A stretch of 64,000 bases of DNA, taken from positions 186,001 to 250,000 of the forward strand of contig NZ_CP015880.1 in the NCBI RefSeq assembly GCF_000697965.2. The letters run 5' to 3'. The DNA comes from Ensifer adhaerens (GTDB lineage: Bacteria; Pseudomonadota; Alphaproteobacteria; Rhizobiales; Rhizobiaceae). Shown piece after piece: positions 27,597 through 52,494 of this stretch. The stretch's first letter is position 1. Each line of letters starts with the position of its first letter. Below the pieces are notes generated by a model, which saw only the letters and a list, made by a program, of their open reading frames with translations, ran no database searches and was not told the DNA's origin. Made by a program: the position numbers and the translations under genes.

Positions 27597-27613
27597 AAAC
27601 GGGAGAAAGCACC

Positions 27614-28804: not shown

Positions 28805-30408
28805 CCATGGAAAGAACGGTTGGAGAAGTCCTGGTCGACCTGCTCGAGGCCAATGGCGTCGAGGTGGTTTTCGGCATTCCCGGCGTGCACACGGTCGAGC
28901 TCTACCGGGGCCTCGCTGCATCGAAGATCCGCCACGTGACGCCACGGCATGAACAGGGCGCCGGCTTCATGGCCGACGGCTATGCCCGCGTCAGCGGCAA
29001 GCCGGGCGTTGCCCTCGTCATCACCGGGCCCGGCCTCACGAACACCATCACGGCGATGGCGCAGGCGCGCCAGGATTCGATCCCGATGCTGGTGATTTCA
29101 GGCGTCAATCGCCGCGATTCGCTCGGCCATGGGCGCGGCCTGCTGCACGAGCTGCCCGACCAGCACGGCATGATGAAGACGCTGGCGCTCTATTCGCACA
29201 CGCTCCTCAATCCGGAAGACCTGCCTTTCGTCGTCGACCGCGCCTTCTCGGTGCTCGTCTCCGGTCGGCCGGGACCGGTGCATATCGAGATCCCGACCGA
29301 CGTGATGTCGGCGAAGATCACGCCGCAGGCGCTGCGGCCGGCAACGGCCACCCGACCGCGCTCCGACAGCGAGACGCTGCAGCGCGCGGCGATCCTCTGC
29401 GCCGACGCCTCGCGCCCGGTCATCATCTGCGGCGGCGGCGCCCTGACGGCGGAGGCGGAAGTTGCGGAGCTTGCCGAAAAGATCGGTGCGCCCGTCGTCA
29501 CCACTGTCAATGCTCGCGGCATGTTCTCGGGCAGTCCCTTGAGGGTTCCTGCGAGCCCCAGCCTGAAGGCGGTGCGGTCGCTGCTGAAGGAGGCCGACCT
29601 GGTGCTGGCGCTCGGCACCGAAATGGGCCAGACCGACTACGACATGTATGCCGATGGCGGCTTTCCGGCCCTGCGCAACCTGATCCGCACCGACATCGAT
29701 GCGGCGCAGCTCGCGCGCGGGCCGCATGCGGCGCTCTCCATCCTCTCCGGCGCCAAGGCGGCGACGGCGGGCATCCTCGCCTTTCTCCCCGGTCATGCTG
29801 CGAAGGATGGAGCGGGACGGGCCGAAACGGCGCGGAGGGCGGCGCTGAAGGAACTGACGCCGAAGATGCGGGCCGAGATCGGCATCATCGACACCATCTA
29901 CAAGTCTCTGCCGGATTGCACCGTCGTCGGCGACTCGACCCAGGCCGTCTATGCCGGCAACCTCTACTGTGATGCACCGCGGCAGCGTAGCTGGTTCAAT
30001 TCGGCGACCGGTTACGGTTCTCTGGGCTATGCGCCGCCAGCAGCCGTCGGTGCAGCCGTCGCCGATCCGTCTCGGCCGGTCGTCTGTCTCGTCGGCGACG
30101 GTGGCTTCCAGTTTTCGCTCGCTGAAATCGGGTCTGCCGTCGATGCGCAGGCGCAGGTCATCTTCCTCGTCTGGAACAATGACGGCTACCAGGAAATCGA
30201 AAGCTACATGGTCGATGCCGGCGTTACGCCGGAGGGCGTCAAGCCTTCGGCGCCGGACTTCCTGATGGCGGCGAAGGCCTATGGCGTCGAGGGACGGCGG
30301 CTTGCTTCCGTCGCCGATCTCTCACAGGCGCTCGCCGAGGCGGCGAAGCGCAAGGGACCGTCGCTTATCGAGATCCACGAGCGGCGAACGAGCGGCATCA
30401 CGGCCTGA
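28801..30408 (+). CDS. aruI: ThDP-dependent 2-ketoarginine (5-guanidino-2-oxopentanoate) decarboxylase
   Basis: This 535-residue enzyme resembles large subunits of acetolactate synthase: N-terminal pyrimidine domain with the catalytic Glu in TPRHEQGAGFMADGYAR, a central domain (GPVHIEIPTDV onward) and a C-terminal ThDP domain with the GDG(x)nNN Mg site (VGDGGFQFSLAEIG ... NNDGYQEIE). The GPGLTNTITAM and VNRRDSLG region fits the AruI group, which decarboxylates 2-ketoarginine to 4-guanidinobutyraldehyde. It is coupled to the aminotransferase by a 4-base overlap. The downstream dehydrogenase and guanidinobutyrase are not in the window. Confidence 0.83.
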   Translation: MTMERTVGEVLVDLLEANGVEVVFGIPGVHTVELYRGLAASKIRHVTPRHEQGAGFMADGYARVSGKPGVALVITGPGLTNTITAMAQARQDSIPMLVISGVNRRDSLGHGRGLLHELPDQHGMMKTLALYSHTLLNPEDLPFVVDRAFSVLVSGRPGPVHIEIPTDVMSAKITPQALRPATATRPRSDSETLQRAAILCADASRPVIICGGGALTAEAEVAELAEKIGAPVVTTVNARGMFSGSPLRVPASPSLKAVRSLLKEADLVLALGTEMGQTDYDMYADGGFPALRNLIRTDIDAAQLARGPHAALSILSGAKAATAGILAFLPGHAAKDGAGRAETARRAALKELTPKMRAEIGIIDTIYKSLPDCTVVGDSTQAVYAGNLYCDAPRQRSWFNSATGYGSLGYAPPAAVGAAVADPSRPVVCLVGDGGFQFSLAEIGSAVDAQAQVIFLVWNNDGYQEIESYMVDAGVTPEGVKPSAPDFLMAAKAYGVEGRRLASVADLSQALAEAAKRKGPSLIEIHERRTSGITA

Positions 30409-35045: not shown

Positions 35046-35189
35046 CGAAAACGCCGCGGTTCACGCCAGTTTTCCCCCGAACTCTGCTTCCAAGACTTGG
35101 TTTGCCAAGAAAAAGCGCTTATCTGCCGTCAATGGTCTGGCGGGCAAATTCGTGCCTGTTGCTTAAGTCTTCGCAGAATTGGGGTCATC

Positions 35190-36200
35190 ATGGGTTTGAG
35201 ACATGCATCGGCGGATGATCGCACTGCACTTGCGGCTTTGGAGTCGATCGGCCGGACGCTGACGACCGCGATGGCCGGCATCAAGGCGCTGGCGGACCAA
35301 TTTGGCGCTGACGAAGTTTTTGCGCGCAGCGTCGTCGAAGCCGTCGAACTGATCGGCGAAAGCCAGGGGCGCGTCGTCGTCTCCGGCGTCGGCAAGAGCG
35401 GCCATATCGGCCGCAAGATTGCAGCCACGCTGGCATCGACCGGAACATCCGCCTACTTCGTGCACCCGACCGAAGCGAGCCATGGCGACCTCGGCATGGT
35501 CACCTCGCAGGACGTGCTGATCCTGCTCTCCTGGTCGGGCGAGACGGCCGAGCTTGCCAACATGCTCACCTATGCCAAGCGCTTCAACGTGCCGATCGTC
35601 TCGATCTGCGCCAACCGCGACAGCGTGCTTGCCCGCAACTCGGAAGTGCCGATCGTCTTGCCGAAGGTTCAGGAAGCCTGTCCGCACGGCCTCGCGCCGA
35701 CGACCTCGGCCATGCTGCAACTCGCCATCGGCGACGCGCTCGCCATCGCGCTTTTGGAGCGGCGCGGCTTTTCGGCCGAGGATTTCAAGACTTTTCATCC
35801 GGGCGGCAAGCTCGGCGCGCAGTTGCGGCTTGTTCGCGAGCTGGCGCATGACGGCGCCCAGATGCCGCTTCTCAGCGTCGGACGCCCGATGAGCGAGGCG
35901 CTGATCGAGATGTCGTCCAAGGGTTTCGGTGTCGTCGGCATCATCGACGATGGCGGCAAGCTGGCCGGCGTGATCACCGACGGCGACCTGCGTCGTCACA
36001 TGTCCGGCGACCTGCTGCTGCAACCGGTCGAGGCGGTGATGTCGCGCAATCCGCGCGTGATCCGCGGCGACGTGCTTGCAAGCGGCGCCATGGAATTCAT
36101 GCAGCAGCATAAGGTGACCGTGCTCTTCGTCGTCGACGACGGCGGGGCGCCGGTCAGCATCCTGCATATTCATGATCTGCTGCGCGCTGGCGTCGTCTGA
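35190..36200 (+). CDS. kpsF: D-arabinose 5-phosphate isomerase, KpsF/GutQ family
   Basis: This 336-residue protein interconverts ribulose 5-phosphate and arabinose 5-phosphate, the first step to Kdo. An N-terminal SIS domain (VVSGVGKSGHIGRKIAATLASTG split across residues about 56-78, HPTEASHGDLGMV, SWSGETAEL) is followed by the EDFKTFHPGGKLG linker and two CBS domains (about 210-330). ATG at 35190 is chosen because the conserved part follows; ribosome site GGGG is weak. In Sinorhizobium a kpsF paralogue belongs to the rkp-1 capsule region, and here it lies 1.8 kb from rkpJ. Confidence 0.9.
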   Translation: MGLRHASADDRTALAALESIGRTLTTAMAGIKALADQFGADEVFARSVVEAVELIGESQGRVVVSGVGKSGHIGRKIAATLASTGTSAYFVHPTEASHGDLGMVTSQDVLILLSWSGETAELANMLTYAKRFNVPIVSICANRDSVLARNSEVPIVLPKVQEACPHGLAPTTSAMLQLAIGDALAIALLERRGFSAEDFKTFHPGGKLGAQLRLVRELAHDGAQMPLLSVGRPMSEALIEMSSKGFGVVGIIDDGGKLAGVITDGDLRRHMSGDLLLQPVEAVMSRNPRVIRGDVLASGAMEFMQQHKVTVLFVVDDGGAPVSILHIHDLLRAGVV

Positions 36201-38018: not shown

Positions 38019-39347
38019 CTACCCTTGGCGGGAAGCGGAAGGCGCGCGTTTCGCAGGCTTTTGGCGCGGCGCGGGGTCAATAAAGGCGCCAGGTTCGTTG
38101 AGGCTGCTTTCGTTCAGCCGCCGGGCAATCGCTTCCGCGCCGGCATCGGTTCCGGCGCGGGAATAAAGGTTGCCGCGCACCTGGATCGACGCGGCAAGCA
38201 GGCGGAACATTGCGACACTAAGTTCAGGCTCCGGCGCCTGGGGCGCCTGCCAGAAACCGTCGAGTGGCTGCTGGTCGGTCAGACCGGCAATATCGAAGAC
38301 GGCAGTGCCGAGCACTTTGACCGGCCGCCCTTGCTTCAGGGCGTGCAATCCGGCCGTCGAATTCACCGTGACCATGCCGGCGCTCGCCTCGCCAAGCGTA
38401 TCGAGATTTCCGCCGTCCAGGTAGAAGACGCGCCCTCTCAAGCCAAGCGCCGCTGCTCGCTGCTCGATGAAGCTGCGCCACGGGACCAGGTCGTTGTCGA
38501 GCGGATGCACCTTGAAGACCAGGCGTGCATTCGGCGCGGCAAAGGCGCCGAACGAGGTCAGGACGTCAGCGATTGCATCCTTCTGGCTGTGGAAGGGCGA
38601 ATGCGCCCTGAGCTGAAAGTCGGTTTCGAGCTGAAGCGGATAGACGAAGTAGGGGGCATCGTCCGAAAGGAGCTGCGCAACGGTCGCCACCGCTTCCGCG
38701 TTGCGCCGCTTCTCGGAGAGCAGCCGGCGCACCCAGCCCGCGTATTCGGCGAGCGGATGGAAAATCCCGTGACGGCGGTAGTGCGGAAACAGGAACCAGA
38801 AAAAGACGTTCGGCAGATTGTAGAGCAGATCGTAGCTCGCATCGGCGAGGAACGTCTGGCTGTAGCGCTTGCGCCAGTCCGGCTCCGGCAGGTTTGACGC
38901 TGCCGAAAGGATCTGACCGGCGTCGTTCGGAAAATGGGAGTTCGACGACATGCCGTTGCGCTCGAGCGTCAGCCAGTCCGGCCGCAGATAGCCCATTTCG
39001 ATAATGGCGACACTGACGCCGGCGCGATGGGCGACGGCAGTCGCTGCCTGGTGATAAGGCCGCTCTTCGCCAAGCAGCAGCATGTCGGTGACGCCGTGGG
39101 TGGCGATGAATGTCTCGAGATAGCCAGGCCAGGCGGCCGCCGTACCGCGATAGTTGAAGCCGCCCTTGCGGCGCCAGAAGATCTGGTCGCCGACGTTCAG
39201 ATTGATCCTCAGGCAGCGGTGGCCGAGGGCTTCGAGCCGGTCGGCGATCTTGCGGAAGATCGGCGAGGAGGGGCCCTGCAGGAACAGGAAGACCCGCTGT
39301 CTCGGCCGTGCGGCCCCACCGGCCGATGTCGTCGAAGCGTTCTCCAT
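38019..39347 (-). CDS. rkpJ: KpsS-like capsule polysaccharide protein RkpJ
   Basis: A 442-residue cytoplasmic protein resembling KpsS: it opens with the typical FLFLQGPSSPIFRKIADRL segment, and has the paired motifs FKVHPLDN and VNSTAGLHALKQGRPV found in KpsS/KpsC retaining Kdo transferases. In E. coli these enzymes start the poly-Kdo linker on the capsule's lipid anchor. In S. meliloti rkpJ is required for K-antigen. The C-terminal tail is basic and low-complexity. It is the last gene of rkpA-G-H-I-J, 13 bases behind rkpI. Confidence 0.87.
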   Translation of the reverse strand: MENASTTSAGGAARPRQRVFLFLQGPSSPIFRKIADRLEALGHRCLRINLNVGDQIFWRRKGGFNYRGTAAAWPGYLETFIATHGVTDMLLLGEERPYHQAATAVAHRAGVSVAIIEMGYLRPDWLTLERNGMSSNSHFPNDAGQILSAASNLPEPDWRKRYSQTFLADASYDLLYNLPNVFFWFLFPHYRRHGIFHPLAEYAGWVRRLLSEKRRNAEAVATVAQLLSDDAPYFVYPLQLETDFQLRAHSPFHSQKDAIADVLTSFGAFAAPNARLVFKVHPLDNDLVPWRSFIEQRAAALGLRGRVFYLDGGNLDTLGEASAGMVTVNSTAGLHALKQGRPVKVLGTAVFDIAGLTDQQPLDGFWQAPQAPEPELSVAMFRLLAASIQVRGNLYSRAGTDAGAEAIARRLNESSLNEPGAFIDPAPRQKPAKRAPSASRQG

Positions 39348-39360
39348 CCGCAGACCGCCG

Positions 39361-40953
39361 CTAGCGCAGCGTATCCTTTCTCAGGTTCGCGTGGTTGAGA
39401 AGCGCCTCAATCAGGTTCCAGGCCTCGACGCTGCTCGGTTCGGCCGGCTTATGGGACGACCGCTTCGCCTTGGCGAGCGGCACGATCAGATAGTCGGTGC
39501 GCGGATCCGGGAAGGGGTCGGCGAAGGATTTGAGCAGCGGTGCGTGATCGCCGTAGAACACGAGCCAGACCGGACGGTCGAGCTTGTCGAGGTGTTCGCT
39601 CAATGTGTTGAGCGCCGCATCGGACTGCTCGAGGATGGCCAGATAGATGTCGACGGGATTGGTGAGGTCGCCGACGCGGCCCGGCTCCCATGGACCGTGA
39701 TTGGCCATGGATGCGACGAAGATGAAGCCGCTTTCGTCTTCGGGCAGCTTCTCGCTTGCGTCGATCACCTTCGCCGCGAGCTTCTCGTCGGAGACGTAGG
39801 GTCCGTCTCGCTCTGGGCGATGGTCGAAACCGTCGAGCATCGTCAGCTTGGAGAAGCCGAGCTGCGGCATCGCCTTGTGCCTGAGGAAGAAGGTCCGGTC
39901 ATAAGGATGGATGAAGTGGGTATTCCAGCCGGCACGCTTCAACTTTCCGGGCCAGACGACGTCGGCATAGTGCGATGCGCGCAGATAGGGATAGCTGGCG
40001 TCGACATGAATATCGTCGGGCACCAGGCCGCTGATCACGGCGAATTCGGTGCGCAGCGTATAGCCGCCTTCGAACACGCTGCTGAGCCGGCCCCACTGAA
40101 CCGCCTCGCGCCGCAGCCGGTCGAGCGTCGGCAGTTTCAGCGTATCGACGCCGAAGTGCCGCATGTCGATGAAGGATTCCGATTGCCAGACGACGATCAG
40201 CGGCGAGCCGTCGTCACCGATCAGATCCTGCACGGCGGCCCGGACGATCTTGGAGAGATCCGCGACGATCTTTTCGCGACGCACACCGAGCCAGATGATG
40301 AAACGGAAGACGACCGAGCCGAAGGTACCGAAGCGCACCGTGTTCATCTTGACGTCGAGGACCTTGAGCAGCCGCTGTACCAGCGCGGCCGTCGGGCGGT
40401 TCACCGGGCCGTAGAAGAGCAGGAGCCAGGGACCATAGGCGATGCCGAGCATCACGAGGATCCAGAAGGCCTTCCCCCGGTCCGGCAGAATCGCCGGCTC
40501 GAAGTACATGTAGAGGCCGGAAACGCCAAAGACGTAGAGGAAGGCGACGGTCCAGAAGACGACGTTCAGTGAGCTCGCATAGAAGATCGTCTTGTACTTG
40601 AACACGTCGACGACCAGCGCGATGTCGGAAAAGATCAGCGGTTCACGGATGAACTTGAACTTGGCGCGGGAAATGCCGGTGAAGATGATGAAGAAGCTCA
40701 TCGTGCCCGCCGCCGCATAGAGCGGACGCCAGGATCCGGCGAAGAAACCGGCAAAGACCAGAGCGATGACAGGTAGGCGGGCAAGCACGTCGATCACGTC
40801 CTGCGTGCGTCCGAAAGGCGAAGGATTGGCGCGCCGCTCCCGCTTCGGCAGGGCGAAACGGTCGGTGAAGAAGATCACCGCGCAGGACAGCAGATAACAA
40901 CTAAGCGTCAGTGTTATCGGATAGTCGTGCAGCTGAAAGGGAAGCAACGCCAA
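39361..40953 (-). CDS. rkpI: membrane sulfatase/LtaS-like phosphotransferase RkpI
   Basis: A 530-residue protein: four to five helices in the first about 180 residues, then a periplasmic alkaline-phosphatase-superfamily domain. Metal or nucleophile candidates are Glu in WQSESF, Thr in GGYTLRTEF, and the later Asp-His in FYGDHAPLL; ASMANHGPW is also typical. Homologues include lipoteichoic acid synthase and phosphoethanolamine transferases, so transfer of a phospho-group to a lipid or glycan is plausible but unproven. rkpI is known to be needed for K-antigen in S. meliloti. The rkpH gene ends 98 bases upstream. Confidence 0.85.
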   Translation of the reverse strand: MALLPFQLHDYPITLTLSCYLLSCAVIFFTDRFALPKRERRANPSPFGRTQDVIDVLARLPVIALVFAGFFAGSWRPLYAAAGTMSFFIIFTGISRAKFKFIREPLIFSDIALVVDVFKYKTIFYASSLNVVFWTVAFLYVFGVSGLYMYFEPAILPDRGKAFWILVMLGIAYGPWLLLFYGPVNRPTAALVQRLLKVLDVKMNTVRFGTFGSVVFRFIIWLGVRREKIVADLSKIVRAAVQDLIGDDGSPLIVVWQSESFIDMRHFGVDTLKLPTLDRLRREAVQWGRLSSVFEGGYTLRTEFAVISGLVPDDIHVDASYPYLRASHYADVVWPGKLKRAGWNTHFIHPYDRTFFLRHKAMPQLGFSKLTMLDGFDHRPERDGPYVSDEKLAAKVIDASEKLPEDESGFIFVASMANHGPWEPGRVGDLTNPVDIYLAILEQSDAALNTLSEHLDKLDRPVWLVFYGDHAPLLKSFADPFPDPRTDYLIVPLAKAKRSSHKPAEPSSVEAWNLIEALLNHANLRKDTLR

Positions 40954-41050: not shown

Positions 41051-41890
41051 TCAGGTCCGGTGCTCGGACACTCCACGATTATGCGTCGCCGTGTTGCCGC
41101 ACCGCACAATCGCCCGGTCGAACCACCAGTTGAGCAGGGGACGAACGGCGGGAGCGAAGCGTCCAAGTAGAAACAATGTCGTGCCGAAATAGACTTCGAA
41201 CCGGCCGCGGTCGGTTCCCTTGACGATCCGCTTGGCCACCGCTTCGGCCGGCCAGGGCCGGACCGTGCCCATGATCGTGGCCGCTTCCGGCGGTCGCGCC
41301 GCCAGCTCGCGCTGAAACTGCGGCGTTTCCGTATCCGGCGGAAAACAGACGGAGACACTGACGCCGTGCGGACGGGCTTCTGAACGCAGCGCCTGGGCGA
41401 AGCCGTGCACGGCGAACTTGGAGGCGCAATAGGCCGAATAACCATAGATGCCGAGTAGCCCTGCGCCGGACGAGATCATCATAATCCGGCCCCGCCGGCG
41501 CCGCTTCATGCTGTCATAGACCGCCCGGACCGCATGCACCGTGCCGGAGAAGTTGGTGTCCATCTGCTGCCGGAACGAGGCGCTGTCGAGCTCCTCGAAC
41601 CGGCCGGGTTCGACGATGCCGGCCGATGCCACCAGGATGTCGCAGGGGCCGAAGGCCTGTTCGCACCGACGAATGGCCGCTTCGACGTCGCTTTCCACCG
41701 CGACGTCGGCGGCCTCGATCCGGATGCTGTCGGCGTTCGCCCCACTGGATGCGATAAGTTTTGCCTGCGCGCCTTCCAGGAGGCCACGGGAGCGGGCAAT
41801 CAGCGAGAGGCGCGCCCCGCGCGCCGCGTAGATCGATGCGACCGCAAATCCGATACCGCTCGAGCCACCGGTAATGATCACATGCGCCAT
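41051..41890 (-). CDS. rkpH: short-chain dehydrogenase RkpH, 3-ketodihydrosphingosine reductase-like
   Basis: This 279-residue SDR has the NADPH motif ITGGSSGIGFAV, the Asn-Ala-Gly equivalent VASAGIVEPG, and the catalytic YxxxK in YSAYCASKFAVHG. The segment VSVCFPPDTETPQF is strikingly like the PPDTDTPGF signature of 3-ketodihydrosphingosine reductases, which reduce the 3-keto group of sphingoid bases. A hydrophobic C-terminal stretch suggests membrane association. It follows rkpG, an alpha-oxoamine synthase, in the operon, which fits reduction of a long-chain aminoketone. The established point is only that rkpH is needed for K-antigen. Confidence 0.88.
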   Translation of the reverse strand: MAHVIITGGSSGIGFAVASIYAARGARLSLIARSRGLLEGAQAKLIASSGANADSIRIEAADVAVESDVEAAIRRCEQAFGPCDILVASAGIVEPGRFEELDSASFRQQMDTNFSGTVHAVRAVYDSMKRRRRGRIMMISSGAGLLGIYGYSAYCASKFAVHGFAQALRSEARPHGVSVSVCFPPDTETPQFQRELAARPPEAATIMGTVRPWPAEAVAKRIVKGTDRGRFEVYFGTTLFLLGRFAPAVRPLLNWWFDRAIVRCGNTATHNRGVSEHRT

Positions 41891-41974
41891 GCTGGTATTC
41901 CGCTCCAGAGTTCGGGAGAGTGCGAAGCGGCTCTGCTTCCGCGACCACCTGACCCGGCAGCAAATGCGATCGGG

Positions 41975-43390
41975 TCAGCGCGCCGAGAGCGCTTTCATCA
42001 TCTGGTCGATGTCGATGCCGCCAAGGCCGAAGTTGCGTTCGGTAAGGTCGGCCAGACGCTCGGCCGTGAGTGTTACCGTGCGCCGGATCTGCTCTTCCGT
42101 GTGGTCGCTGGTGATGAAGAAGCGCAGCCGAGCCAGGCCTTCCGGGACCGCCGGGTGGATGATCGGCAGCGCATTGACCCCTTCGGCAAGCAGGTCGTTC
42201 GACAGCTGCACCGCACGCAGGGAATCGCCAACCAGAACCGGAACCACGGAAAATCCGCTGCTGAGGCCGGTGTCGAGCCCCGCTTCCTTGGCAAGCTTGA
42301 GGAAGAGCGCGCCGTTGCGGCGCAGCGCCGCCGTGCGCGTCGGCTCCCGTTCCAGCACCTCCAGGCTTGTGGTTGCCGCGGCCGCCAGAACCGGCGCAAG
42401 GCCGACGCTGTAGACGAAGCCGCCGGCCGATGCCTTCAGCACCTCGACCAGCGCTTCGCTGCCGGCGATGTAGCCGCCGCAGCTCGACGTGGTCTTGGAG
42501 AGCGTGCCCATCCAGATGTCGATCTCGCGGGGATCGACGCCGAAATGCTCTGCAAGCCCGCGGCCGGTCTTGCCGAGAACGCCGAGCGAATGCGCTTCGT
42601 CGACCATCAGCCAGAAGCCATATTCGGCCCGGAGCTTCAGAAGCGCCGGCAGGTCGGCGACGTCGCCGTCCATCGAGTAGATGCCCTCGACGATGACCAT
42701 GATGCGGCGATAGTCGCCGGCGACCGTGCGCAGCACGTGTTCGAGGTCGGCGACGTCATTGTGCTTGAACAGGCGTCGTGTCGCGCCCGAGAGCTTGACG
42801 CCGGCAAGGGCGCTGTTGTGGATGAACTCGTCGTGGACGACGAGGTCCTTCGGTCCCATCAGGCAGCTGATGGCGGCGACATTGGTGAGATAGCCGCTGA
42901 CGAAACAGACGGCGGCATCGACGCCATAGAAGTCGGCGATCTTCTCTTCCAGCGCCACATGCACCGGACGCTCGCCGGCGACGAGGCGGCTCGCCGAGGC
43001 GGAAATGCCGAAGGTGCCGATGGTATCGCGTGCCCGCGCAAGCACCTCCGCATGGCGATTGAGGCCAAGATAGTCATAGGAGGCGAAGTTGATCAGCTTG
43101 CGGCCATCGATGACGGTGGTCGCGCCGGCGGCCGTCTGATGGGCACGATAGAACGGATTGGCGATGCCGAGCTGTTCGCTTGCAAACTTCTGCGTCATCA
43201 CCTGCTTGTATTCCGGCAGGTCTTCGAAACGGGCCTGCTGCCGGCGCGCCGGCGGCGGCATCTCCCGCTCCGAGCGCGCCATGCGGTTGCGCTCGGAGGA
43301 TTGATGCGTGTTTCTCATCCGGTCCAGCAGGTTCTCTTTGAGGCTGCTGGTCATCTTGGATGCGCCTGGACCGTTTCCGTTCGTGCTCAT
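41975..43390 (-). CDS. rkpG: alpha-oxoamine synthase RkpG
   Basis: A 471-residue PLP enzyme of the AONS/KBL/SPT group: after a polar N-terminal extension of about 85 residues it has NFASYDYLGL, the cofactor motif VDEAHSLGVLGKTGRG, and the Schiff-base Lys in GTLSKTTSSCGGYIAGS. The family condenses an acyl thioester with an amino acid and releases CO2. Here the acyl donor could be the RkpA acyl carrier domain, since rkpA ends with an ACP and the two genes overlap by four bases (ATGA). Homologues are also annotated as 2-amino-3-ketobutyrate CoA ligase. The amino acid substrate is unknown. Confidence 0.88.
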   Translation of the reverse strand: MSTNGNGPGASKMTSSLKENLLDRMRNTHQSSERNRMARSEREMPPPARRQQARFEDLPEYKQVMTQKFASEQLGIANPFYRAHQTAAGATTVIDGRKLINFASYDYLGLNRHAEVLARARDTIGTFGISASASRLVAGERPVHVALEEKIADFYGVDAAVCFVSGYLTNVAAISCLMGPKDLVVHDEFIHNSALAGVKLSGATRRLFKHNDVADLEHVLRTVAGDYRRIMVIVEGIYSMDGDVADLPALLKLRAEYGFWLMVDEAHSLGVLGKTGRGLAEHFGVDPREIDIWMGTLSKTTSSCGGYIAGSEALVEVLKASAGGFVYSVGLAPVLAAAATTSLEVLEREPTRTAALRRNGALFLKLAKEAGLDTGLSSGFSVVPVLVGDSLRAVQLSNDLLAEGVNALPIIHPAVPEGLARLRFFITSDHTEEQIRRTVTLTAERLADLTERNFGLGGIDIDQMMKALSAR

Positions 43391-46300
43391 TGGCCTTGTG
43401 CTTTTTCCTTCGCCGTTCCGACGTGCCGCTGCGCAAGTTCGCTGACAATCTTGTCGTCGGCGGGCTCGGCATCGTCGCTCTGGTCGCGCTTGCTCACCTT
43501 CTCATAGAGCTTGCGGGCGACATCGCCAACCGTCGTGTTGTCGGCGACGCCGCTGAGCGGCATGTCGAAGCCGGTGTTCTGCTGGAAGCTCATGCCGAGT
43601 TCGACGGCCATGAGGCTGTCGAGCCCGATTTCCTTCAGAACCTTGCTGCGCGTGACCGTATCCTTCGATACGCGCAGGATTGCGGCGATTTCGCCGGCGA
43701 CGAGGTCGAAGAGAATGTCTTCGGCTTCCTGCGGCGACTTGCCCTCGATCATCACGACGAGGTCCATCTTGGTGCCTTCGCCGCCCGTCGCATGCTGGTC
43801 GGCGCTGCGCAGGATGACTTCGAAGAGCGCGTTCTTGGCGACAGGCAGATTGCGTGCCGCCGACCAGTCGATCTCCGAGATCATCACGGTTGCCGCATCG
43901 ACGGTGCCTGGATCGAAGGCCAGGTGGCTCTCGACCATGTCGAGTGCCGTCTGCGCCTTCAGCGCGGTCTTGCCGATGCGCTTGGCGAGGATGTCGTTCA
44001 CATCCGTGTTCTGGACCAGATAGCCCCTGTCGGCGATGGCGCCGAACCCGACGGCGAGACCCGCAAGGCCGCGTGCGCGACGGGCGCGGGCGAGACCTTC
44101 GAGATAGCCGTTGGCTGCGACGTAATTCGCCTGTCCGGGGTTGCCGACGAGTGTCGTCGCCGATGAGAACAGGATGAAGTTGTCGATCTTGTCGTTGCTG
44201 GTCAGTTGATCGAGAACCGCGGCACCCTTGGCCTTGGTGTCGATGACCGGCCGGTTTCGCTCGCGGTTGAGGTTGCTGATCAGCGCGTCGTCGAGCACCA
44301 TCGCGGCATGGACGATCGAGCGCAGCGGTGCCACGGCGCGCAACGTCTTGAGCAGGCGCTCCGTCGCTGCCGGATCGGTGACGTCGCAGGCATGAACCGT
44401 GGCGGATACGCCAGCCTTCGTCCAAGCTTCGATCATTGCCGTCGTTTCGGCGTCCGCCAGGCCGCGGCGTGAGCAGAGCGCGACCTTCGTCGCACCCTTT
44501 TCGACGAGCCAGTTGGCGGCAGCCAGGCCGAAACCGCCGATGCCGCCGACGACGAGATGCATGCCGTTCGGATCGACCTTCATGCCGCCATGCGGACGCT
44601 TGGCAACGCGATGCGTGCCGGCGACCGGAGGAAGCACGACGATTTTGCCGATATGCCCGGCATTCTGCATCAGTCGGAAGGCGTTGCCGATCTCGTCGAA
44701 GTCGAAGGCGCGATAGGGAAGCGGCGTCAGCTTGCCGTCTTCGAACAGCGCACCGATCTCGGTGAAGATCCGCTTGGTCAGCTTCGGCTGATTGACCAGC
44801 AACTGGTCGGCGTCGATGCCGAAATAGCTGACATTGCGGCGGAACGGCCGAAGGCCGATCTTGCTGTCGGCGTAATAGTCGCGCTTGCCAAGCTCAAGGA
44901 AGCGGCCAAAGGGCTTCACCAGCGCCAGGCTCTGCTCCATGGCCTCGGCGAACAGCGAGTTGAGCACGAGATCGACGCCTTCACCGCCCGTCACGGCGCG
45001 AACGTCGTTGACGAAATCGAGCGAACGGGAATCGAAGACGTGATCGGCACCCAGCATCGACAGGAAGCGACGCTTCTCGCGCGATCCTGCCGTGGCGATG
45101 ATCCTGGCGCCCTTCAGCTTTGCGACCTGCAGCGCGGCAAGGCCGACGCCGCCGGCGGCGCCATGGATGAGGATCGTTTCGTCAGGCTGGATCCGTCCAA
45201 GCTCGACCATCGCGTAATAGGCAGTCAGGAACGCGACCGGAACCGTCGCCGCGGCGACGGGGCTGACCGATTGCGGCAACCTGGCGACGCCGGCGCGCGA
45301 AACGACCGCGTGGGTCGAGAAGGCGGAGGATGCAATCGCCATGACGGCATCGCCCACGGCGAGGTCATCGACGCCGTCGCCGACCGCGACCACGTGGCCG
45401 GAAAGCTCCATGCCGATCGTCGCGCCTGCGAAGCCGTCTTCGAGCGCCTCTTCCGGCAGAAGGCCCATCGCCCACATTACGTCGCGGAAGTTGAGGCCGG
45501 TGGCTGCGACCGCGACGACGACTTCACCCGGGCCTGCCGAGGGGATGTCGCTTTCTTCCCAGACGATGCTGCCCACCTGAGAGCTGACGCGCTGGCGGAT
45601 GGTTGCAGCCTTGAAGTCAGCCGTTGCCGCGTGCCCATTGTCGACTGGGCCAGGCACGGCGCGGATCTCCGAAAGCGCAGCGCCAGCTTCGCCTTCGAGC
45701 AGCCATTCGCGGTTTACTCCCATCGCGCCAAGCAGCGGCAATGCCGCAGCCATCTGAGCATCCGTCGTCGGCGAACCGTCGATGTCGAGCGAGTGGACGT
45801 CGAGGAACTCGTATTCGTTCTGAAGCACGCGTGCGAAAGCCCAGAGGCCGGCATTGACGCCGTCGCTTGCGACCGCCTCGCCGACCGTCCGGCTGGCGAT
45901 CGGTGCGCCGCCGGGCGCGACAAGCAGGAGACGGGGCCGTTTGTCCTCCGCTGGCTCCGCACCGCCGATATGCTGGCGCAATGCTTCGGCAAACGTGCCG
46001 AGCGCGAGGATCTGTGTTTGTAGAGAGGCGGAATCGTCGGTGCGCGACGCGGCCGCCGGCAAGGCAAGGAAGACTGCCCGAAGCGGTTGGCCCCCCAGCG
46101 TCTCGAAGGCTGGCAGGAGCGCGGCCTTGTCCGCAGCCGCATCGCCGGTCAGGCTGACACGAATGGCTGAATCAGAGGGCTCGCGCTGCTCGCGCCCCGC
46201 GATCTCCAGCAGGAGGTGGGGGACGGATGCCGGCACCGCCGCGTCTGCGGCAGCAGTTGCTGCGCCACGCGCTTCGAGCAGGATGACGTTGCCGCTTGCA

Positions 46301-49300
46301 CATTCGCGGTCGGCAATGTCGGTGTCCCGCAGGTCGAGATCGTCGAGGCATTTCTGCCAGTGCGGCGCCGCCGCGAGGTTGCCGATCGGAAACTCCGCCG
46401 TCTGGCTGCGCGCGAACCAGCCCTCGGACAGGCCAAGCGCGAAGTCGTTGAACAGCGATGGCGCGCTGACCGCGGCAATCAGCCCACCCGTAGGGCGCAG
46501 TGCCGTGCGCAACGCTGTGCGAACCGCCACATCGTCCTCGATCAGGCCGTAGAACGCGTCGGACGCGCTGACAGCAAGATCGAAGGCCGCAAGCGTCGCG
46601 AGTTCGCCCTTCTTGAGGATGTGTACATGGGCGTCGTTTTCGAAGGCCAGCTCAAGGCCGCGCTGGGCGTTATCGCGTGCTTCGAACACGGTGAGGCTTG
46701 CACCATGCTTTTCGGCAAGAGTGGCCAGACGCTTAGTGAAACCGGCGGATACGCTGCCGAGTTCGACGATGCGCAGGCGCGCTCCGGCGGACTGTGCCGA
46801 CAGCGCCGTTTCGACAGCCTCCAGCACGAAGGCCATGCGCTGGCGGCTTGCCTCCGAATGAACCGCCTGATGGTCGATCGTGGCGTCGCTGATGAAGCTC
46901 GATCCCGAGGCCGCTTCGTCGCCCGCATGCAAGGCATCGATGCGGGCAAGGGCTTCCGCATAGGCGTTGTTGATCAGCACGGCCTCGACGGCGCGGTCAG
47001 GCCGCTCGCCGTAAAGTTCGCTCAGAATTTCAGGCACGCTCGGCAGGTTGAATTCCTGCGCGACGGTCCACACACCATCCTTGTGCTCACAGAGCCCGGC
47101 ATCTTCGAGCACGTAGAGGCAGCTCGTCAGAAAACACTGGAAGGCGAAATCGCCAGGCAGATTGCCGCCCTGGATCGTGGAACGCCCCTTACCGAGCTTG
47201 AGGGCGATCTCCTGGCAGGCGCGGTAGATCGCGGCATTGAAGAGCAGCGTCGCATTGTCGACACCAGCCTCGCCGGCGGCCGGCATTGCGATCGATACCG
47301 GCGCAAGGCTGTTGCGCAGAAGGCTTGGCAGGGCGGCTTCCGATTGTACTGCCTCGTAGTGGAAGGACAGCGCATCGAGCGTCTTGTGCTTGCGCAGATA
47401 GGTGCGGCGGAAACGGCAATCCTCGAAATGCGCGATCGGCTCGCCCGACTGGCCGAAGAAGTGGAACTTCGCCTTGATCGAATTGGTGCTGACGCGTTCA
47501 ATTTCGATCATCGCGCGCGCGATCGGCAGGCCGCCATTGACGACACGAACCGAACCGAAGCGGACGGGAATATAGGGTGCGCCGCTCTTGTCGCCAGTGA
47601 ATCGGTCGAAGAGCGCCACCAGCGCGTGGAAGGTCGCATCGACCGAGATCGGGTTCAGGGCATAGCTGACCAGCGGGTGTCCGGTGGCTTCGGCCGTCTT
47701 CAGCTCGACATCGACCAGGCGGTCGCCATAGGCAACCGCTTTTGCGAGCAGCTGGAAGCGAGGACCGTAGTCGAGGCCGAATTGCCGCGCCGTCTCATAG
47801 GCGCGACCCGGTGCCACCGTTGCCGTCTTGGCGAGGCCTGCGAGCGACGGATAGGCGCGGTCCCCGGCCGGCAGCGGCTTGCGGCAGCGGGCAACCGCGT
47901 GCACGGCCCAGTCGTCTTCCGACAGCCGTTCACGCGAGCGGATTTCGAGGTCGCCGGTCTCTGGCGAAAGGACGGTCGACAGCTCCATGATTTTTGTGTC
48001 GCTGAGTTCCAGCGGCCGGACGATTTCGAGATTGGTGATCTCGACTTCTTCGCTGCCATAGAACTGCTGTGCCGCAGCAACGGCGATCTCGATGAAGCCG
48101 CTGCCCGGCAGGATCGCCTTGCCGTCCACCACGTGTTCGGCAAGATCCGGGAAGAGATGGGCGTCGATATGGTTTTTCCAGCTGCCGCTGTTCGGATCGC
48201 TGCGCCAGCCGGTCAGGCGGTATGGTCTGGCAATCCGGCCGAACAGGTCGGTGGCATCAGTTGTTGCCGCCGGGCGCAGTTCGACGGGCTCGAAGGGCAG
48301 GCTTGGCAGGGCGATCGATGCATTGCGCTTGCCGAATACCCGGGTCGTATCCACGACGGCGCCGTGCGCAACGGCACGTGCCATCGCGGCCGAGATCGGA
48401 TCCTGGCCGCTTTCGGCGACGTCTCTGAGCAGCGTGGGCACCACCATGCAGGGGGCTGCTGCCTGCTTGATCGTCTCCTTGACGTAGGACGACAGGATCG
48501 GGCGCGGCGAAATCTCGATGAACAGGCGGCAGCCCATTTCGATCGCGGCTTCCGCAGCCGCCTGGAAGCGGACCGGCTCGCGAACGTTCTTCCACCAGTA
48601 TTCCGGATCGAGCTGCGTGCCCTCGAGCGCGGCACCCGTGACCGTCGAAAGGTAGGCGAGTTCGGTGCGGCGCGGTGCGATATCGGGGATGTCCGAGAGG
48701 AAGGCATCCTTCGCCCGATCGATGATCGGATGATGGAACGGATAGTTGATGTCGAGGATCTGGACCGGGATCTTCGCCTTGCGGGCGGCATCGCGGAAGG
48801 CCGAGATCTGGTCGGCCGGGCCCGAGATCGTCACGGAATTATGCGCGTTGACCGCAGCAACGCAGAGTTCGTCAAGACCGCGAGCCTCGGCAAAGGCGCG
48901 AGCAGCCTCTTCACCGAGCATGACGGCCGCCATCGTGCCGTGGCCGGCAAGCAGGTCCTGATGCAGCGAACGTTTCGCAACGATCGAAACGGCATCGACG
49001 AGCGACAGCGCGCCGGCCGCGTAGGCGGCGGCGATTTCGCCGACAGAGTGACCGAAGACGGCGACCGGCTTGATGCCCATGGCAACCAGCGAATCCGACA
49101 GGGCGGCCTGCACCGCAAACAGCAGCGGCTGGGCGATCTTGGTGTCGGCAAGCTTCTTGTCGAGATCAGGATCGGTCAGGAGATCGGTGAGCGCGATATC
49201 CGAATGGAACTTGAACAGCGCGCTGACCGAGGTGAAACACTGGCGGAAATGCAGGTTTTCGCGGAAGGCTTCCACACCCATGCCGGCCCATTGCGAGCCG

Positions 49301-50898
49301 TTGCCGGAGAACACGAACGCGACCTTGGCGTCGCGAACGACGGCCTCGCCCACCTCACCGATATCCGAGCCGGGCTTTTCCAGGTGGCTGGCGATCGCAC
49401 GGACGATATCTTCGGGCTGGTCGCTGCGAGCGGCAAACCGATGGCGCATATGGGTGCGGTTGGCACCCGATGCGGCGATCATCGCACGGGCTTCACTCTT
49501 GGAAGCATGCGCGAAAGCGGTCTTGTAATCCTTGAGAAGGGCTTCCAGGCTCGACTGCGTATGAGCGCTTGCGAGGAACACATGTCCCGAAGACGACGGG
49601 TTTGCGGCCTTTTCATCGGCGGCCGGTTCCGGGTCGCTGATAACGACGTGCGCATTGGCGCCGCCGAAGCCGAACGAGTTGATGCCGGCAAGGCGCGCGC
49701 GCTTGCCGCGCAGAAGCTCGATCGGGTTTGCCGTGACGCGGACGTTCAGACCATCGAAGTCGATATGCTCGTTTGGCGTGTCGAAATGCAGCGAAGCCGG
49801 CAGGTAGTTGTTCTCAAGCGCCATCATGGCCTTCAGCATGCCGAAGAGGCCGGAGGCGGGTTCCGTATGGCCGATGTTCGACTTGATCGAGCCGATCGGC
49901 ACAGGCGCCCGGCGCTTGGCGCCGATGACCGTTCCGATCGACCAGACTTCCGCCGGGTCGCCGACCTTGGTGCCGGTACCGTGGCCTTCGACGAAGGCCA
50001 CCTGATTGGCGTCGATGCCGTTTCCTTCGTAGATCGCTCTCAGCAGGTTGGCCTGGGCTTCGCGCGACGGCAGCGAAATGCCGTTGGTGCGGCCGGCCGA
50101 ATTCACGCCGGTCGCGACGATGCGCGCATAGCTGCGGTCTTTCTCGCGGCGCGCCCGGTCGGAACGGCGCAGCACGAAGACCACGCCGCCTTCGGCGCGC
50201 ACGTAGCCGGCGCCGTCGTTGTCATAGGCGCGGCAGAGGCCTTCCGGCGACAGCATGCGTGCCTGGGCGAAGCCGACGAAGGGCAGGGGGTGGGCAAGGA
50301 TGTTGACGCCGCCGACGATCGCCGTGTCGATCTCCCCGGCGTTGAGCGCCCGCATCGCCTGGTCGAGGGCGACCAGCGAGGAGGAACAGGCGGTGTCGAC
50401 CGTCATGCTCGGGCCGCTGAGGCCGAAGATGTGCGAGATGCGGTTGGAGACGATCGACAGGGTGTTGCCGGTCATGAAGTACGGGCCAGCCGCGGCCGGA
50501 TCCTCGACCGTCAGGTTGGCGTGGTCGAGGCTCGATGCGCCGATATAGACACCGACGTTTTCGCCGTGCAGCGACGTCGCCGAGATGTTGGCGTCTTCAA
50601 GCGCCCGCCAGGCGAGCTGGAGCAGCACGCGCTGCTGCGGGTCCATATACATGGCCTCGCGCTGCGACATGCCGAAGACGGCCGGATCGAAATCATAGAG
50701 TTGATCCAGCACGCCGGCCGCGAAGGAATAGGTCTTCCCCTGCGTGCCCATGACGGGATGCCAGAATCGCGCCACGTCCCAGCGATCCGATGGAATGCTG
50801 GTGACGGTGCACTTGCCCTGACGTAGAAGTTTGAACAACGCCGAGGGCGATTCTGCTCCAGGGGCGAGGCATGCACGCCCAATAATCTCAACAGCCAT
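43387..50898 (-). CDS. rkpA: RkpA, single-module fully reducing type I fatty acid/polyketide synthase
   Basis: The 2503 residues are ordered as KS (about 1-425; Cys171 in TACSSS, His306 in EGHGTGT, His344 in SNIGHTEP), AT (525-830; Ser618 in GHSVG), DH (890-1170; His922 in HVVDGKAILPG, Asp1087), a degenerate methyltransferase-like region (about 1370-1480), ER (1758-2095; NADPH loop HGAAGGVG), KR (2106-2300; Tyr about 2259) and ACP (Ser2428 in GLDSLMAVEL). There is no thioesterase. All reducing domains look intact, so a saturated acyl chain is predicted, released by RkpG. In S. meliloti rkpA (first described as rkpA-F) is required for K-antigen and thought to make its lipid carrier. The ATG has no strong ribosome site. 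Confidence 0.95.
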   Translation of the reverse strand: MAVEIIGRACLAPGAESPSALFKLLRQGKCTVTSIPSDRWDVARFWHPVMGTQGKTYSFAAGVLDQLYDFDPAVFGMSQREAMYMDPQQRVLLQLAWRALEDANISATSLHGENVGVYIGASSLDHANLTVEDPAAAGPYFMTGNTLSIVSNRISHIFGLSGPSMTVDTACSSSLVALDQAMRALNAGEIDTAIVGGVNILAHPLPFVGFAQARMLSPEGLCRAYDNDGAGYVRAEGGVVFVLRRSDRARREKDRSYARIVATGVNSAGRTNGISLPSREAQANLLRAIYEGNGIDANQVAFVEGHGTGTKVGDPAEVWSIGTVIGAKRRAPVPIGSIKSNIGHTEPASGLFGMLKAMMALENNYLPASLHFDTPNEHIDFDGLNVRVTANPIELLRGKRARLAGINSFGFGGANAHVVISDPEPAADEKAANPSSSGHVFLASAHTQSSLEALLKDYKTAFAHASKSEARAMIAASGANRTHMRHRFAARSDQPEDIVRAIASHLEKPGSDIGEVGEAVVRDAKVAFVFSGNGSQWAGMGVEAFRENLHFRQCFTSVSALFKFHSDIALTDLLTDPDLDKKLADTKIAQPLLFAVQAALSDSLVAMGIKPVAVFGHSVGEIAAAYAAGALSLVDAVSIVAKRSLHQDLLAGHGTMAAVMLGEEAARAFAEARGLDELCVAAVNAHNSVTISGPADQISAFRDAARKAKIPVQILDINYPFHHPIIDRAKDAFLSDIPDIAPRRTELAYLSTVTGAALEGTQLDPEYWWKNVREPVRFQAAAEAAIEMGCRLFIEISPRPILSSYVKETIKQAAAPCMVVPTLLRDVAESGQDPISAAMARAVAHGAVVDTTRVFGKRNASIALPSLPFEPVELRPAATTDATDLFGRIARPYRLTGWRSDPNSGSWKNHIDAHLFPDLAEHVVDGKAILPGSGFIEIAVAAAQQFYGSEEVEITNLEIVRPLELSDTKIMELSTVLSPETGDLEIRSRERLSEDDWAVHAVARCRKPLPAGDRAYPSLAGLAKTATVAPGRAYETARQFGLDYGPRFQLLAKAVAYGDRLVDVELKTAEATGHPLVSYALNPISVDATFHALVALFDRFTGDKSGAPYIPVRFGSVRVVNGGLPIARAMIEIERVSTNSIKAKFHFFGQSGEPIAHFEDCRFRRTYLRKHKTLDALSFHYEAVQSEAALPSLLRNSLAPVSIAMPAAGEAGVDNATLLFNAAIYRACQEIALKLGKGRSTIQGGNLPGDFAFQCFLTSCLYVLEDAGLCEHKDGVWTVAQEFNLPSVPEILSELYGERPDRAVEAVLINNAYAEALARIDALHAGDEAASGSSFISDATIDHQAVHSEASRQRMAFVLEAVETALSAQSAGARLRIVELGSVSAGFTKRLATLAEKHGASLTVFEARDNAQRGLELAFENDAHVHILKKGELATLAAFDLAVSASDAFYGLIEDDVAVRTALRTALRPTGGLIAAVSAPSLFNDFALGLSEGWFARSQTAEFPIGNLAAAPHWQKCLDDLDLRDTDIADRECASGNVILLEARGAATAAADAAVPASVPHLLLEIAGREQREPSDSAIRVSLTGDAAADKAALLPAFETLGGQPLRAVFLALPAAASRTDDSASLQTQILALGTFAEALRQHIGGAEPAEDKRPRLLLVAPGGAPIASRTVGEAVASDGVNAGLWAFARVLQNEYEFLDVHSLDIDGSPTTDAQMAAALPLLGAMGVNREWLLEGEAGAALSEIRAVPGPVDNGHAATADFKAATIRQRVSSQVGSIVWEESDIPSAGPGEVVVAVAATGLNFRDVMWAMGLLPEEALEDGFAGATIGMELSGHVVAVGDGVDDLAVGDAVMAIASSAFSTHAVVSRAGVARLPQSVSPVAAATVPVAFLTAYYAMVELGRIQPDETILIHGAAGGVGLAALQVAKLKGARIIATAGSREKRRFLSMLGADHVFDSRSLDFVNDVRAVTGGEGVDLVLNSLFAEAMEQSLALVKPFGRFLELGKRDYYADSKIGLRPFRRNVSYFGIDADQLLVNQPKLTKRIFTEIGALFEDGKLTPLPYRAFDFDEIGNAFRLMQNAGHIGKIVVLPPVAGTHRVAKRPHGGMKVDPNGMHLVVGGIGGFGLAAANWLVEKGATKVALCSRRGLADAETTAMIEAWTKAGVSATVHACDVTDPAATERLLKTLRAVAPLRSIVHAAMVLDDALISNLNRERNRPVIDTKAKGAAVLDQLTSNDKIDNFILFSSATTLVGNPGQANYVAANGYLEGLARARRARGLAGLAVGFGAIADRGYLVQNTDVNDILAKRIGKTALKAQTALDMVESHLAFDPGTVDAATVMISEIDWSAARNLPVAKNALFEVILRSADQHATGGEGTKMDLVVMIEGKSPQEAEDILFDLVAGEIAAILRVSKDTVTRSKVLKEIGLDSLMAVELGMSFQQNTGFDMPLSGVADNTTVGDVARKLYEKVSKRDQSDDAEPADDKIVSELAQRHVGTAKEKAQGQ

Positions 50899-51306: not shown

Positions 51307-52494
51307 TTGAAACGAGTCAGTGCCCTTCTGCTTTGTTCCGCCCTCGTCGGGTGCCAGGCTGTGCCTGGTGAAGGGCCGCTGGCCGGAGCGATCGTCAAGG
51401 ACGCCGGCCAGTCAGGCGCCGAGATCGGCCGCCAGAATGCAACGGTTTTCGACATCGTCGATGTGGACGGACGCTCCGCGCGTCTCGTTTCCGATTATGT
51501 CTCCTCGACGCTTAATCGCCGTTTCGGCATTGGCGGCGGTGTTGGCCGCGTCGTCATCGGCGTTGGCGACCAGCTTAAGGTCTCGATCTTCGAAGCCGGC
51601 AGCGACGGCTTGTTCTCGACGCAGGACTCCAAGCAGACGAGCATCGATCTCGTCGTTCAGCCGGATGGCAAGGCTGCCATCCCCTATGTCGGCCCGGTCA
51701 AGTTTGCCGGCCTGACACTGGAGCAGGCGCGCCAGGAAATTCTGGAAGCGCTGAAGCAGAAGGCGGTTGAGCCCGACGTCATCGTCACGAGCATGAGCAC
51801 CGCCTCGCGTAACGTTACGGTTTCGGGTGCCGTCGGCAAATCGTCGGTGGTGCCGCTGAGCCTCGTCGACGAAACGATCAACGAGGTGATCGCCAAGGCC
51901 GGCGGCCCGGTCGCGCAGCCCTACGAGACCTTCGTCACATTGGTGCGCGGCAAGAAGACCGGAACGGTTCTCCTGAAGTCGATCATCGAGAACCCGTCGG
52001 AAAATATCCACGTCAAGCCGGGCGACCAGATCTTCGTGACGCGCGATCCGCGCCGCTTCACGATCCTCGGTGCGGTCAAGGCCAACCAGCGCGTCGAATT
52101 CGGCGCCAACGATCTCAATCTGCTCGAGGCGATGGGCCTTGCGGGCGGTGGCTCGGACTACACGCTCGACATGAAGGGCTATTTCATCTTCCGTTACGAA
52201 GAGCCTGATGTGGTCATGAGCCTGCTCGGTCAGCAGCGTTTCAACGAAATGCTGCGTAAGGGCATGAAGACCGACAGCGTGGGGCGCTACCCGATCGTCT
52301 ACCGCTTTGACATGAGCAAGCCGGACAGCCTGATTGTCGGCCAGACCTTCCCGGTCAAGAACCGCGACGTCATCTATGCCTCGCGTCACCCGTCGGTCGA
52401 TTTCTCGAAGTTCCTGAACTTCGTCGCCCAGCCGGTCGGCATCGCCAATTCCGGCTTCTCGATCGCAGATAACATCAACAATCTCGGAAACTGA
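51307..52494 (+). CDS. rkpU: Wza-family polysaccharide export lipoprotein RkpU
   Basis: A 395-residue protein with a signal peptide ending in lipobox Val-Gly-Cys (Cys about 16), then a Poly_export domain (VGDQLKVSIFEAG, DLVVQPDGKAAIPYVGPV, GLTLEQARQEI) and SLBB-type repeats (VSGAVGKSSVVPLSL, TILGAVKANQRVEFG). Such proteins form the outer-membrane channel for capsule export. It starts with TTG at 51307 (GGAG about 9 bases upstream). rkpU lies divergent from rkpA, as in Sinorhizobium fredii, where it is needed for K-antigen. A strong terminator follows. Confidence 0.9.
   Translation: MKRVSALLLCSALVGCQAVPGEGPLAGAIVKDAGQSGAEIGRQNATVFDIVDVDGRSARLVSDYVSSTLNRRFGIGGGVGRVVIGVGDQLKVSIFEAGSDGLFSTQDSKQTSIDLVVQPDGKAAIPYVGPVKFAGLTLEQARQEILEALKQKAVEPDVIVTSMSTASRNVTVSGAVGKSSVVPLSLVDETINEVIAKAGGPVAQPYETFVTLVRGKKTGTVLLKSIIENPSENIHVKPGDQIFVTRDPRRFTILGAVKANQRVEFGANDLNLLEAMGLAGGGSDYTLDMKGYFIFRYEEPDVVMSLLGQQRFNEMLRKGMKTDSVGRYPIVYRFDMSKPDSLIVGQTFPVKNRDVIYASRHPSVDFSKFLNFVAQPVGIANSGFSIADNINNLGN

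Follow-up and report, generated by a model that had tools for sequence, protein, structure and literature searches.

Which lipid the rkp-1 genes supply to the rhizobial K-antigen has been a question since these genes were described in 1993-1997. Their products have been assigned a part in the synthesis of 'a specific lipid carrier' (PMC4881576), and rkpA is reported among the genes affecting the 3-deoxy-D-manno-oct-2-ulosonic acid (Kdo) capsule of Sinorhizobium meliloti 1021 (PMC5539429). Here, we analyzed rkpA, rkpG, and rkpH of Ensifer adhaerens in a 64,000-nucleotide stretch of its genome (NZ_CP015880.1, positions 186,001 to 250,000; the window, whose numbering is used below). A sequence-only reading of this DNA had proposed that the three genes form a sphingoid-base pathway whose product serves as a capsule anchor or carrier. 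We consider it likely that rkpA-rkpG-rkpH is a polyketide synthase (PKS)-dependent sphingoid-base pathway of the PfSgaABC kind, known from Pseudomonas fluorescens, set in a capsule locus, and that its product is the special rkp-1 lipid for K-antigen display.

RkpA and RkpG resemble a sphinganine-producing enzyme pair

In P. fluorescens MYb115, production of C24, C26, and C28 sphinganines depends on the PKS gene sgaA and the alpha-oxoamine synthase (AOS) gene sgaB and is lost in Δ-sgaA and Δ-sgaB (PMC12134224). According to the same report, purified PfSgaB, which has serine palmitoyltransferase (SPT) activity, binds L-serine with an almost exclusive preference over alanine and glycine and forms 3-ketodihydrosphinganines (3-KDS) from acyl-CoA surrogates, and a reductase role is proposed for sgaC, a gene in the sga cluster that resembles those for 3-ketodihydrosphingosine reductase (KDSR). 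The rkp genes share with PfSgaABC a single-module iterative PKS, a neighboring AOS, and a reductase in the cluster, and rkpA-rkpG follows the PfSgaAB-type order of one reducing PKS module without a thioesterase and then the AOS.

The sequence-only reading had described RkpA as a single fully reducing module that ends in an acyl carrier protein (ACP) and lacks a thioesterase, and this description held. Pfam models found ketosynthase (KS), acyltransferase (AT), dehydratase (DH), enoylreductase (ER), ketoreductase (KR), and ACP domains and no thioesterase in RkpA, and the motifs searched for were present in all six: DTACSS 168, HGTGT 306, and KSNIGH 339 in the KS; GHSVGE 616 and the FH motif NYPFHH 718, which we take to be malonyl-type, in the AT; HVVDGKAILP 922 in the DH; LNFRD 1802 and HGAAGGVG 1912 in the ER; GGIGGFG 2118 and YVAAN 2259 in the KR; and LDSL 2426 in the ACP. 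The interval between the DH and the ER (residues ~1190-1740, ~550 residues; window ~45680-47330), which the earlier reading had passed over, gave no Pfam match and no GxGxG S-adenosylmethionine (SAM) motif and may be a degenerate methyltransferase region. Between the named Rhizobiaceae loci, identity across this interval is 36-89%; most other RkpA-type loci show 25-31% or no match. Between RkpA and the PKS of a Pseudomonas plasmid, identity was 35% over 1195 columns and 42% over 849 columns.

As a fold type I pyridoxal phosphate (PLP) enzyme with a catalytic Lys, an Asp/His pair, and a carboxylate Arg, RkpG belongs to the AOS family. The earlier claim that its AOS motifs are intact was borne out, since H191, D264, H267, K299, and R423 are invariant among 41 aligned sequences including RkpG. 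In a quick 75-row tree, RkpG, the Pseudomonas plasmid AOS, PKS-free relatives, and the AOS domains of PKS-AOS fusions formed one PKS-linked clade (Shimodaira-Hasegawa-like approximate likelihood ratio test [SH-aLRT] 99; PfSgaB is absent from this tree). SPT was the next group (SH-aLRT 89; 0.929 in a FastTree tree), and the rows labeled BioF, KBL, or ALAS fell apart from the RkpG/SPT grouping; the 'bio' and 'kbl' labels rest on placement with E. coli BioF and Kbl, and the ALAS label on a DEVHA motif that we take to be typical, with no ALAS reference in the tree. Comparison with P. fluorescens was made via its AOS P0283 and not PfSgaB itself: RkpG is 48% identical to P0283 over nearly its whole length, the two being about equally long, and P0283, which is known without its own gene neighborhood, shares 79% identity with the plasmid AOS that is linked to a PKS. 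For RkpG, identity was 28% to an alphaproteobacterial SPT and 28-37% to the five other AOS-like genes of the source genome.

RkpG shares with canonical bacterial SPT the AOS fold, the PLP lysine, the GT(F/L)SK motif, and probably the reaction, and the two are likely sister clades. On the other hand, RkpG works with a PKS, has by pattern HNS in 19/21 RkpG rows where SPT has HAS in 10/10, and scored below the cut-offs of all three NCBIfam SPT models (NF047600, 296.7/640; NF047599, 278.3/500; NF047603, 215.3/670). These curated cut-offs rule RkpG out as a canonical SPT and leave it SPT-like in role; no gene of the source genome exceeded any of the three. The motifs were less telling: DEAHS, present in 12/21 RkpG-family rows, was rejected as an SPT-like diagnostic, GTLSK was also found in 2/8 BioF-labeled rows and 6/7 'other' rows, and no alignment residue was found that fixes the amino acid choice of an AOS. 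Approximately unbiased (AU) tests did not reject placement of RkpG with BioF (p 0.106) or KBL (p 0.157), and the fold comparison of the RkpG model (mean pLDDT 69) tied at 37.8 for SPT and 37.7 for KBL, so the structure ranking was dropped as a reason to prefer SPT over KBL. The comparison with SPT that the sequence-only reading had proposed thus confirmed the active-site residues but did not separate SPT from KBL by predicted fold, and together the AU tests and the fold tie mean that sequence alone leaves the amino acid and the relation to SPT undecided. By analogy with PfSgaB, serine is the likely amino acid.

RkpH groups with a ketosphinganine reductase

RkpH carries YxxxK and then PPDTETPQF, and 12 RkpH-type proteins all share its residues D186, T187, T189, P190, and Q191 (from the window, the named Sinorhizobium, Pararhizobium, Mesorhizobium, and Agrobacterium loci, and six further genomes), which argues against a chance resemblance. 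The sequence-only reading had likened this motif to PPDTDTPGF as a KDSR signature. The motif is present and conserved as claimed, but PPDTDTPGF is a putative signature, and the solved KDSR TSC10 (8jat) has another sequence at the aligned spot while sharing the following E..xKP stretch with RkpH.

The comparison with ketosphinganine reductases nevertheless came out as the earlier reading had expected. With a profile of the 12 RkpH-type sequences, TSC10 was the top of 713 solved matches (149 bits), whereas RkpH as a single query retrieved generic short-chain dehydrogenases/reductases (SDRs) first and TSC10 much lower (74 bits). A quick 71-row tree nested TSC10 in the RkpH clade (SH-aLRT 99) and left 30 other SDR rows of the source genome as well as the other locus SDRs outside it; since TSC10 has a long branch and an unusual composition, its exact position is unsure. 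The best other SDR of the source genome reached 80 bits by HMMER and 91 by tblastn, compared to 153 to 178 for the RkpH-type genes of four distant genomes and 150 to 209 for RkpH-type genes, respectively. Judged by sequence, RkpH is closer to a known KDSR than to other SDRs, although it is bacterial and ~270 aa long. An RkpH orthologue as the SDR of all capsule-PKS loci was considered and rejected, since two SDR classes exist, and the Pseudomonas plasmid relative has a reductase of the other class. CerR, for its part, is not known to be related to KDSR. This periplasmic protein, other than TSC10/KDSR, is the Caulobacter reductase (PMC11087976).

Homology to PfSgaAB, which are demonstrated sphinganine makers, and the grouping of RkpH with TSC10 together lend strong support to a sphingoid-base pathway. 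We regard it as probable that RkpA, RkpG, and RkpH make a long-chain amino alcohol.

RkpG-family genes accompany a PKS across genomes

An RkpG-family locus was defined by a match of at least 414 bits, and the loci counted here lie outside the source genome and the window. RkpG-family genes occurred in 11/289 alphaproteobacterial genomes and 16/398 genomes of the phylum, and a total of 23 loci in 22 genomes were available. A PKS gene lay upstream on the same strand in 23/23, adjacent in 22 and ~1 kb off in L124; the KS was visible in 22/23, as the contig of L091 starts inside the PKS and keeps ER-KR-ACP. A PKS was absent from all 20 control loci, which surround other AOS genes (8 of the SPT clade and 12 others, namely 8 KBL-, BioF-, or ALAS-type genes and the unplaced L239, L241, L242, and L243). 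Within ~10 kb, or less where the contig ended, RkpI-type genes were found in 7 of the 23 loci, RkpJ-type in 7, and RkpU-type in 4, with at least one of the three in 13, and an SDR of at least 150 bits in 10 (one RkpH-type, nine of the second class). The same thresholds found no RkpI-, RkpJ-, or RkpU-type gene and no such SDR around the 20 control genes. Since the profiles were built partly from counted loci (L085 and L122 for RkpI; L083, L084, L085, and L118 for RkpJ; L086 and L087 together with copies of L088-L090 for SDRs of the second class; G265 for RkpH-type), the RkpI, RkpJ, and SDR counts are partly circular.

The link was also seen from the reductase side. Among the named loci found via RkpH, rkpG was nearby in 37/42, the remaining five being matches of at most 35% identity. 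In the 398-genome draw from the phylum, 6 genomes had an RkpH-type gene (E 1e-40 or better) and 23 an RkpG-clade AOS (E 1e-90 or better); with the source genome excluded, the AOS was present in 5/5 RkpH-type genomes compared to 22/397 overall (hypergeometric p 3e-7). Four RkpH-type/RkpG-clade pairs lie within ~7 kb, and the pair in G012 is ~20 kb apart on the same contig.

Three intermediate and six PKS-free RkpG-like loci were tallied apart from the 23. An SDR of at least 150 bits stood beside 5/6 of the PKS-free genes; two of the six were found with myo-inositol-1-phosphate synthase and one with a fatty acid hydroxylase. The former two (L056:9536-13731 and L059:6497-10297), which also have an RkpH-type reductase, are candidate inositol-sphingolipid operons.

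A 2611-aa Magnetococcales protein (L188:7835-15667, from a metagenome-assembled genome) combines KS-AT-DH-ER-KR-ACP-AOS in one chain, has an RkpH-type reductase ~6 kb off, and is the sole fusion among the RkpG-type loci examined. Its AOS domain falls among a wide range of AOS linked to PKS or nonribosomal peptide synthetase (NRPS) and not with RkpG, so it does not indicate a recent joining of RkpA and RkpG. Seeming RkpA-RkpG fusions in L048 and L049, picked up from long open reading frames (ORFs), were rejected because their domains lie in different frames. The AOS domain of the PKS-AOS fusion matched at least 1169 long proteins (1169/8000 scored candidates), and among the 120 matches listed nearly all had PKS domains, with NRPS-type domains instead in four. 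The sequence-only reading had placed PKS release by an AOS in fumonisin-type pathways, which in view of these matches was too narrow. In Paraburkholderia (L194:10887-11801) and Caballeronia (L195:10907-11833), an LpxC-like deacetylase gene lies between the PKS and AOS genes.

The rkp genes lie among capsule genes

The stop codon of rkpA and the start of rkpG overlap by 4 nt, and gaps of 84, 97, and 13 nt separate rkpG-rkpH, rkpH-rkpI, and rkpI-rkpJ. The module extends past rkpH into rkpI and then rkpJ (Table 1). RkpI is nearest to GacH/LtaS phosphoglycerol transferases and not to phosphoethanolamine transferases or sulfatases, and RkpJ, which is KpsS-like only, belongs to PF05159 (337 bits). 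On the Pseudomonas plasmid, too, the PKS-AOS set sits within a Kdo-capsule locus.

Table 1. Genes of the rkp region, in window coordinates
Gene	Position	Strand	Product
rkpA	43387-50898	minus	2503 aa; one fully reducing iterative type I PKS module, by Pfam and motifs
rkpG	41975-43390	minus	471 aa; PLP alpha-oxoamine synthase
rkpH	41051-41890	minus	279 aa; short-chain reductase, 3-ketodihydrosphingosine reductase (TSC10) clade
rkpI	39361-40953	minus	membrane protein with GacH/LtaS-type phosphoglycerol-transferase domain
rkpJ	38019-39347	minus	KpsS-like Capsule_synth glycosyltransferase
rkpU	51307-52494	plus	Poly_export/SLBB, KpsD-like polysaccharide export; divergent from rkpA
kpsF/kdsD-type	35097-36200	plus	arabinose-5-phosphate isomerase; Kdo supply

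The locus resembles those of group 2 (ABC-transporter) capsules in its KpsS-like rkpJ, KpsF-type isomerase, and KpsD-like rkpU, and in the Kdo capsule of Sinorhizobium. It differs in that E. coli K5 uses (lyso-)phosphatidylglycerol (PG), whereas the rkp locus encodes its own lipid pathway and a phosphoglycerol-transferase-like protein. In the Burkholderia wcb capsule cluster, the AOS gene is presumably wcbT. The wcb and rkp clusters have been termed orthologous, with wcbR/rkpA as the PKS, and the PKS of the swf sponge symbionts differs in having a reductase-sulfotransferase gene in place of the AOS (PMC3908369).

In a second capsule region of the source genome (contig 2, ~1.03-1.05 Mb), a fatty acid hydroxylase of PF04116 (L246:12221-13012, contig 2 ~1041220-1042011) accompanies NeuB, three Capsule_synth proteins, and an ABC transporter. 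Two loci, L092 and L087, have homologues of this hydroxylase close to RkpA-RkpG. Members of a distinct subfamily lie close to PKS-free RkpG-like genes and, weakly, to 5/8 SPT controls and 0/12 other controls. This distribution fits lipid tailoring without proving it.

Elsewhere in the window, a 712-aa ORF (26666-28801) with ~340 N-terminal residues outside any Pfam family and then an aminotransferase domain lies directly upstream of a 5-guanidino-2-oxopentanoate decarboxylase gene (28801-30405). A 1167-aa hybrid sensor kinase (13225-16725) scored above the cut-off of a domain model for the near-NosP NahK/ErcS family.

Discussion

We infer the following for the substrate, the product in Ensifer, its chain length, the phosphoglycerol step, and the anchor or carrier role. 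RkpA would assemble a long saturated acyl chain while holding it on its own ACP; RkpG would pick this chain up from the ACP and join it by decarboxylative condensation to an amino acid, most likely L-serine, to form 3-ketosphinganine; and RkpH, or another SDR in the wider capsule class, would reduce the ketone to sphinganine. RkpI would then probably add phosphoglycerol from PG, yielding a mimic of lyso-PG on which KpsS-like RkpJ could place the first beta-Kdo and start the Kdo linker. We put forward only tentatively that phosphoglycerol-sphinganine replaces lyso-PG as the Kdo acceptor. Gene linkage and the published rkp-1 statements suggest that the sphinganine lipid supplied by rkp-1 acts as capsule anchor or carrier in K-antigen surface display. 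Of the proposal in the sequence-only reading, then, the sphingoid-base pathway gains support from PfSgaAB and TSC10, while the capsule end use stays conjectural, as a 'phospholipid anchor' has been reported.

Several observations weigh against phosphoglycerol-sphinganine as the Kdo acceptor. Within ~10 kb, 10/23 loci have no homologue of rkpI, rkpJ, or rkpU, so the PKS-AOS pair may have other uses too, and RkpJ, at 202/600 bits, falls below the curated KpsS cut-off. Loop charges and an added helix in the model place the catalytic domain of RkpI probably in the periplasm, whereas E. coli KpsS starts on (lyso-)PG and acts at the cytoplasm-membrane interface (PMC7694667), so the primer would need to flip. 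A 'phospholipid anchor' is stated for the Kdo capsule of S. meliloti 1021 (PMC7902896) and also appears in the title of Fraysse 2005, as cited in reference lists. This anchor may be a glycerolipid, or it could be a sphingoid phospholipid. The reported anchor, the (lyso-)PG start of KpsS, and the probable location of RkpI also favor another explanation, in which the cell makes the sphinganine but its function goes no further than that of an export carrier, a chaperone, or a lipid of the bulk membrane, the covalent K-antigen terminus is ordinary lyso-PG as in E. coli, and RkpI attaches phosphoglycerol to the polysaccharide. Along the same lines, a P. gingivalis SPT mutant is reported to have less K-antigen capsule and yet to make it, in a paper that raises, as speculation, sphingolipids as possible anchors of Porphyromonas surface polysaccharides (PMC5126122). 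We consider a lyso-PG terminus, with the sphinganine confined to such other roles, rather unlikely. The rkp-1 mutants of Rm1021 reportedly retain polysaccharide inside, which would be expected if an export-competent terminus were missing and counts against it.

The identity of the amino acid and the size of the product bear on two less probable explanations. If RkpG used glycine or alanine, the product would be a 1-deoxy or 1-deoxymethyl long-chain amino alcohol and not true sphinganine, and no phosphoglycerol could be attached at C1. AOS enzymes vary in their amino acid, with no deciding residue in our alignment; fumonisin-type AOS use alanine, and the best single hidden Markov model (HMM) for RkpG is bioF, an alanine enzyme. 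However, the almost exclusive use of L-serine by PKS-linked PfSgaB (PMC12134224) and the RkpI-type gene in the same cluster in the window, four plasmid records, and 7/23 loci make a glycine or alanine product improbable. Since the HMM, the AU tests, and the fold do not separate RkpG from BioF/KBL, RkpG might also act on a short or unusual acyl-ACP, with RkpA, RkpG, and RkpH making a small polyketide amine that would act in signaling or modify sugar residues, and no membrane lipid. This we judge very improbable, as the related PKS-AOS pair yields C24-C28 chains (PMC12134224), RkpH groups with a ketosphinganine reductase, and PKS-free RkpG-like genes stand in a lipid setting (KDSR-type reductase with inositol-phosphate synthase in two loci, fatty acid hydroxylase in one).

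PfSgaABC is described as secondary metabolism in host protection, with 6,101 homologous sga-type clusters, chiefly in Burkholderia, and with +154 Da derivatives assigned as most likely phosphoglycerol sphingolipids (PMC12134224; Nat Commun 2025); 'capsul', 'rkp', and 'wcb' have zero occurrences in the main text of that paper. If phosphoglycerol-sphinganine is the Kdo acceptor, the phosphoglycerol-sphingolipids of P. fluorescens would be the capsule primer proposed here, which the fatty acid hydroxylase of the second capsule region would hydroxylate. In listings of the open-access literature, we found no paper linking the rkp or wcb PKS-AOS genes to a sphingoid capsule lipid. The chemistry adds a member to the published PfSgaABC kind; a capsule locus that employs it alongside a phosphoglycerol transferase of its own would be a previously undescribed form of group 2 assembly.

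If K-antigen display does depend on a sphinganine derived from a PKS, the study of bacterial sphingolipids and that of capsule assembly, so far separate fields, would be joined, and the PKS-AOS pairs in the capsule loci of plant-associated bacteria would be explained. Should phosphoglycerol-sphinganine also prove to be the Kdo acceptor, there would be a class of Gram-negative capsules built on this dedicated lipid and not on membrane lyso-PG. A PKS-derived sphinganine would further mean that sphingolipid-like lipids occur in bacteria without a canonical SPT, such as the one with the source genome.

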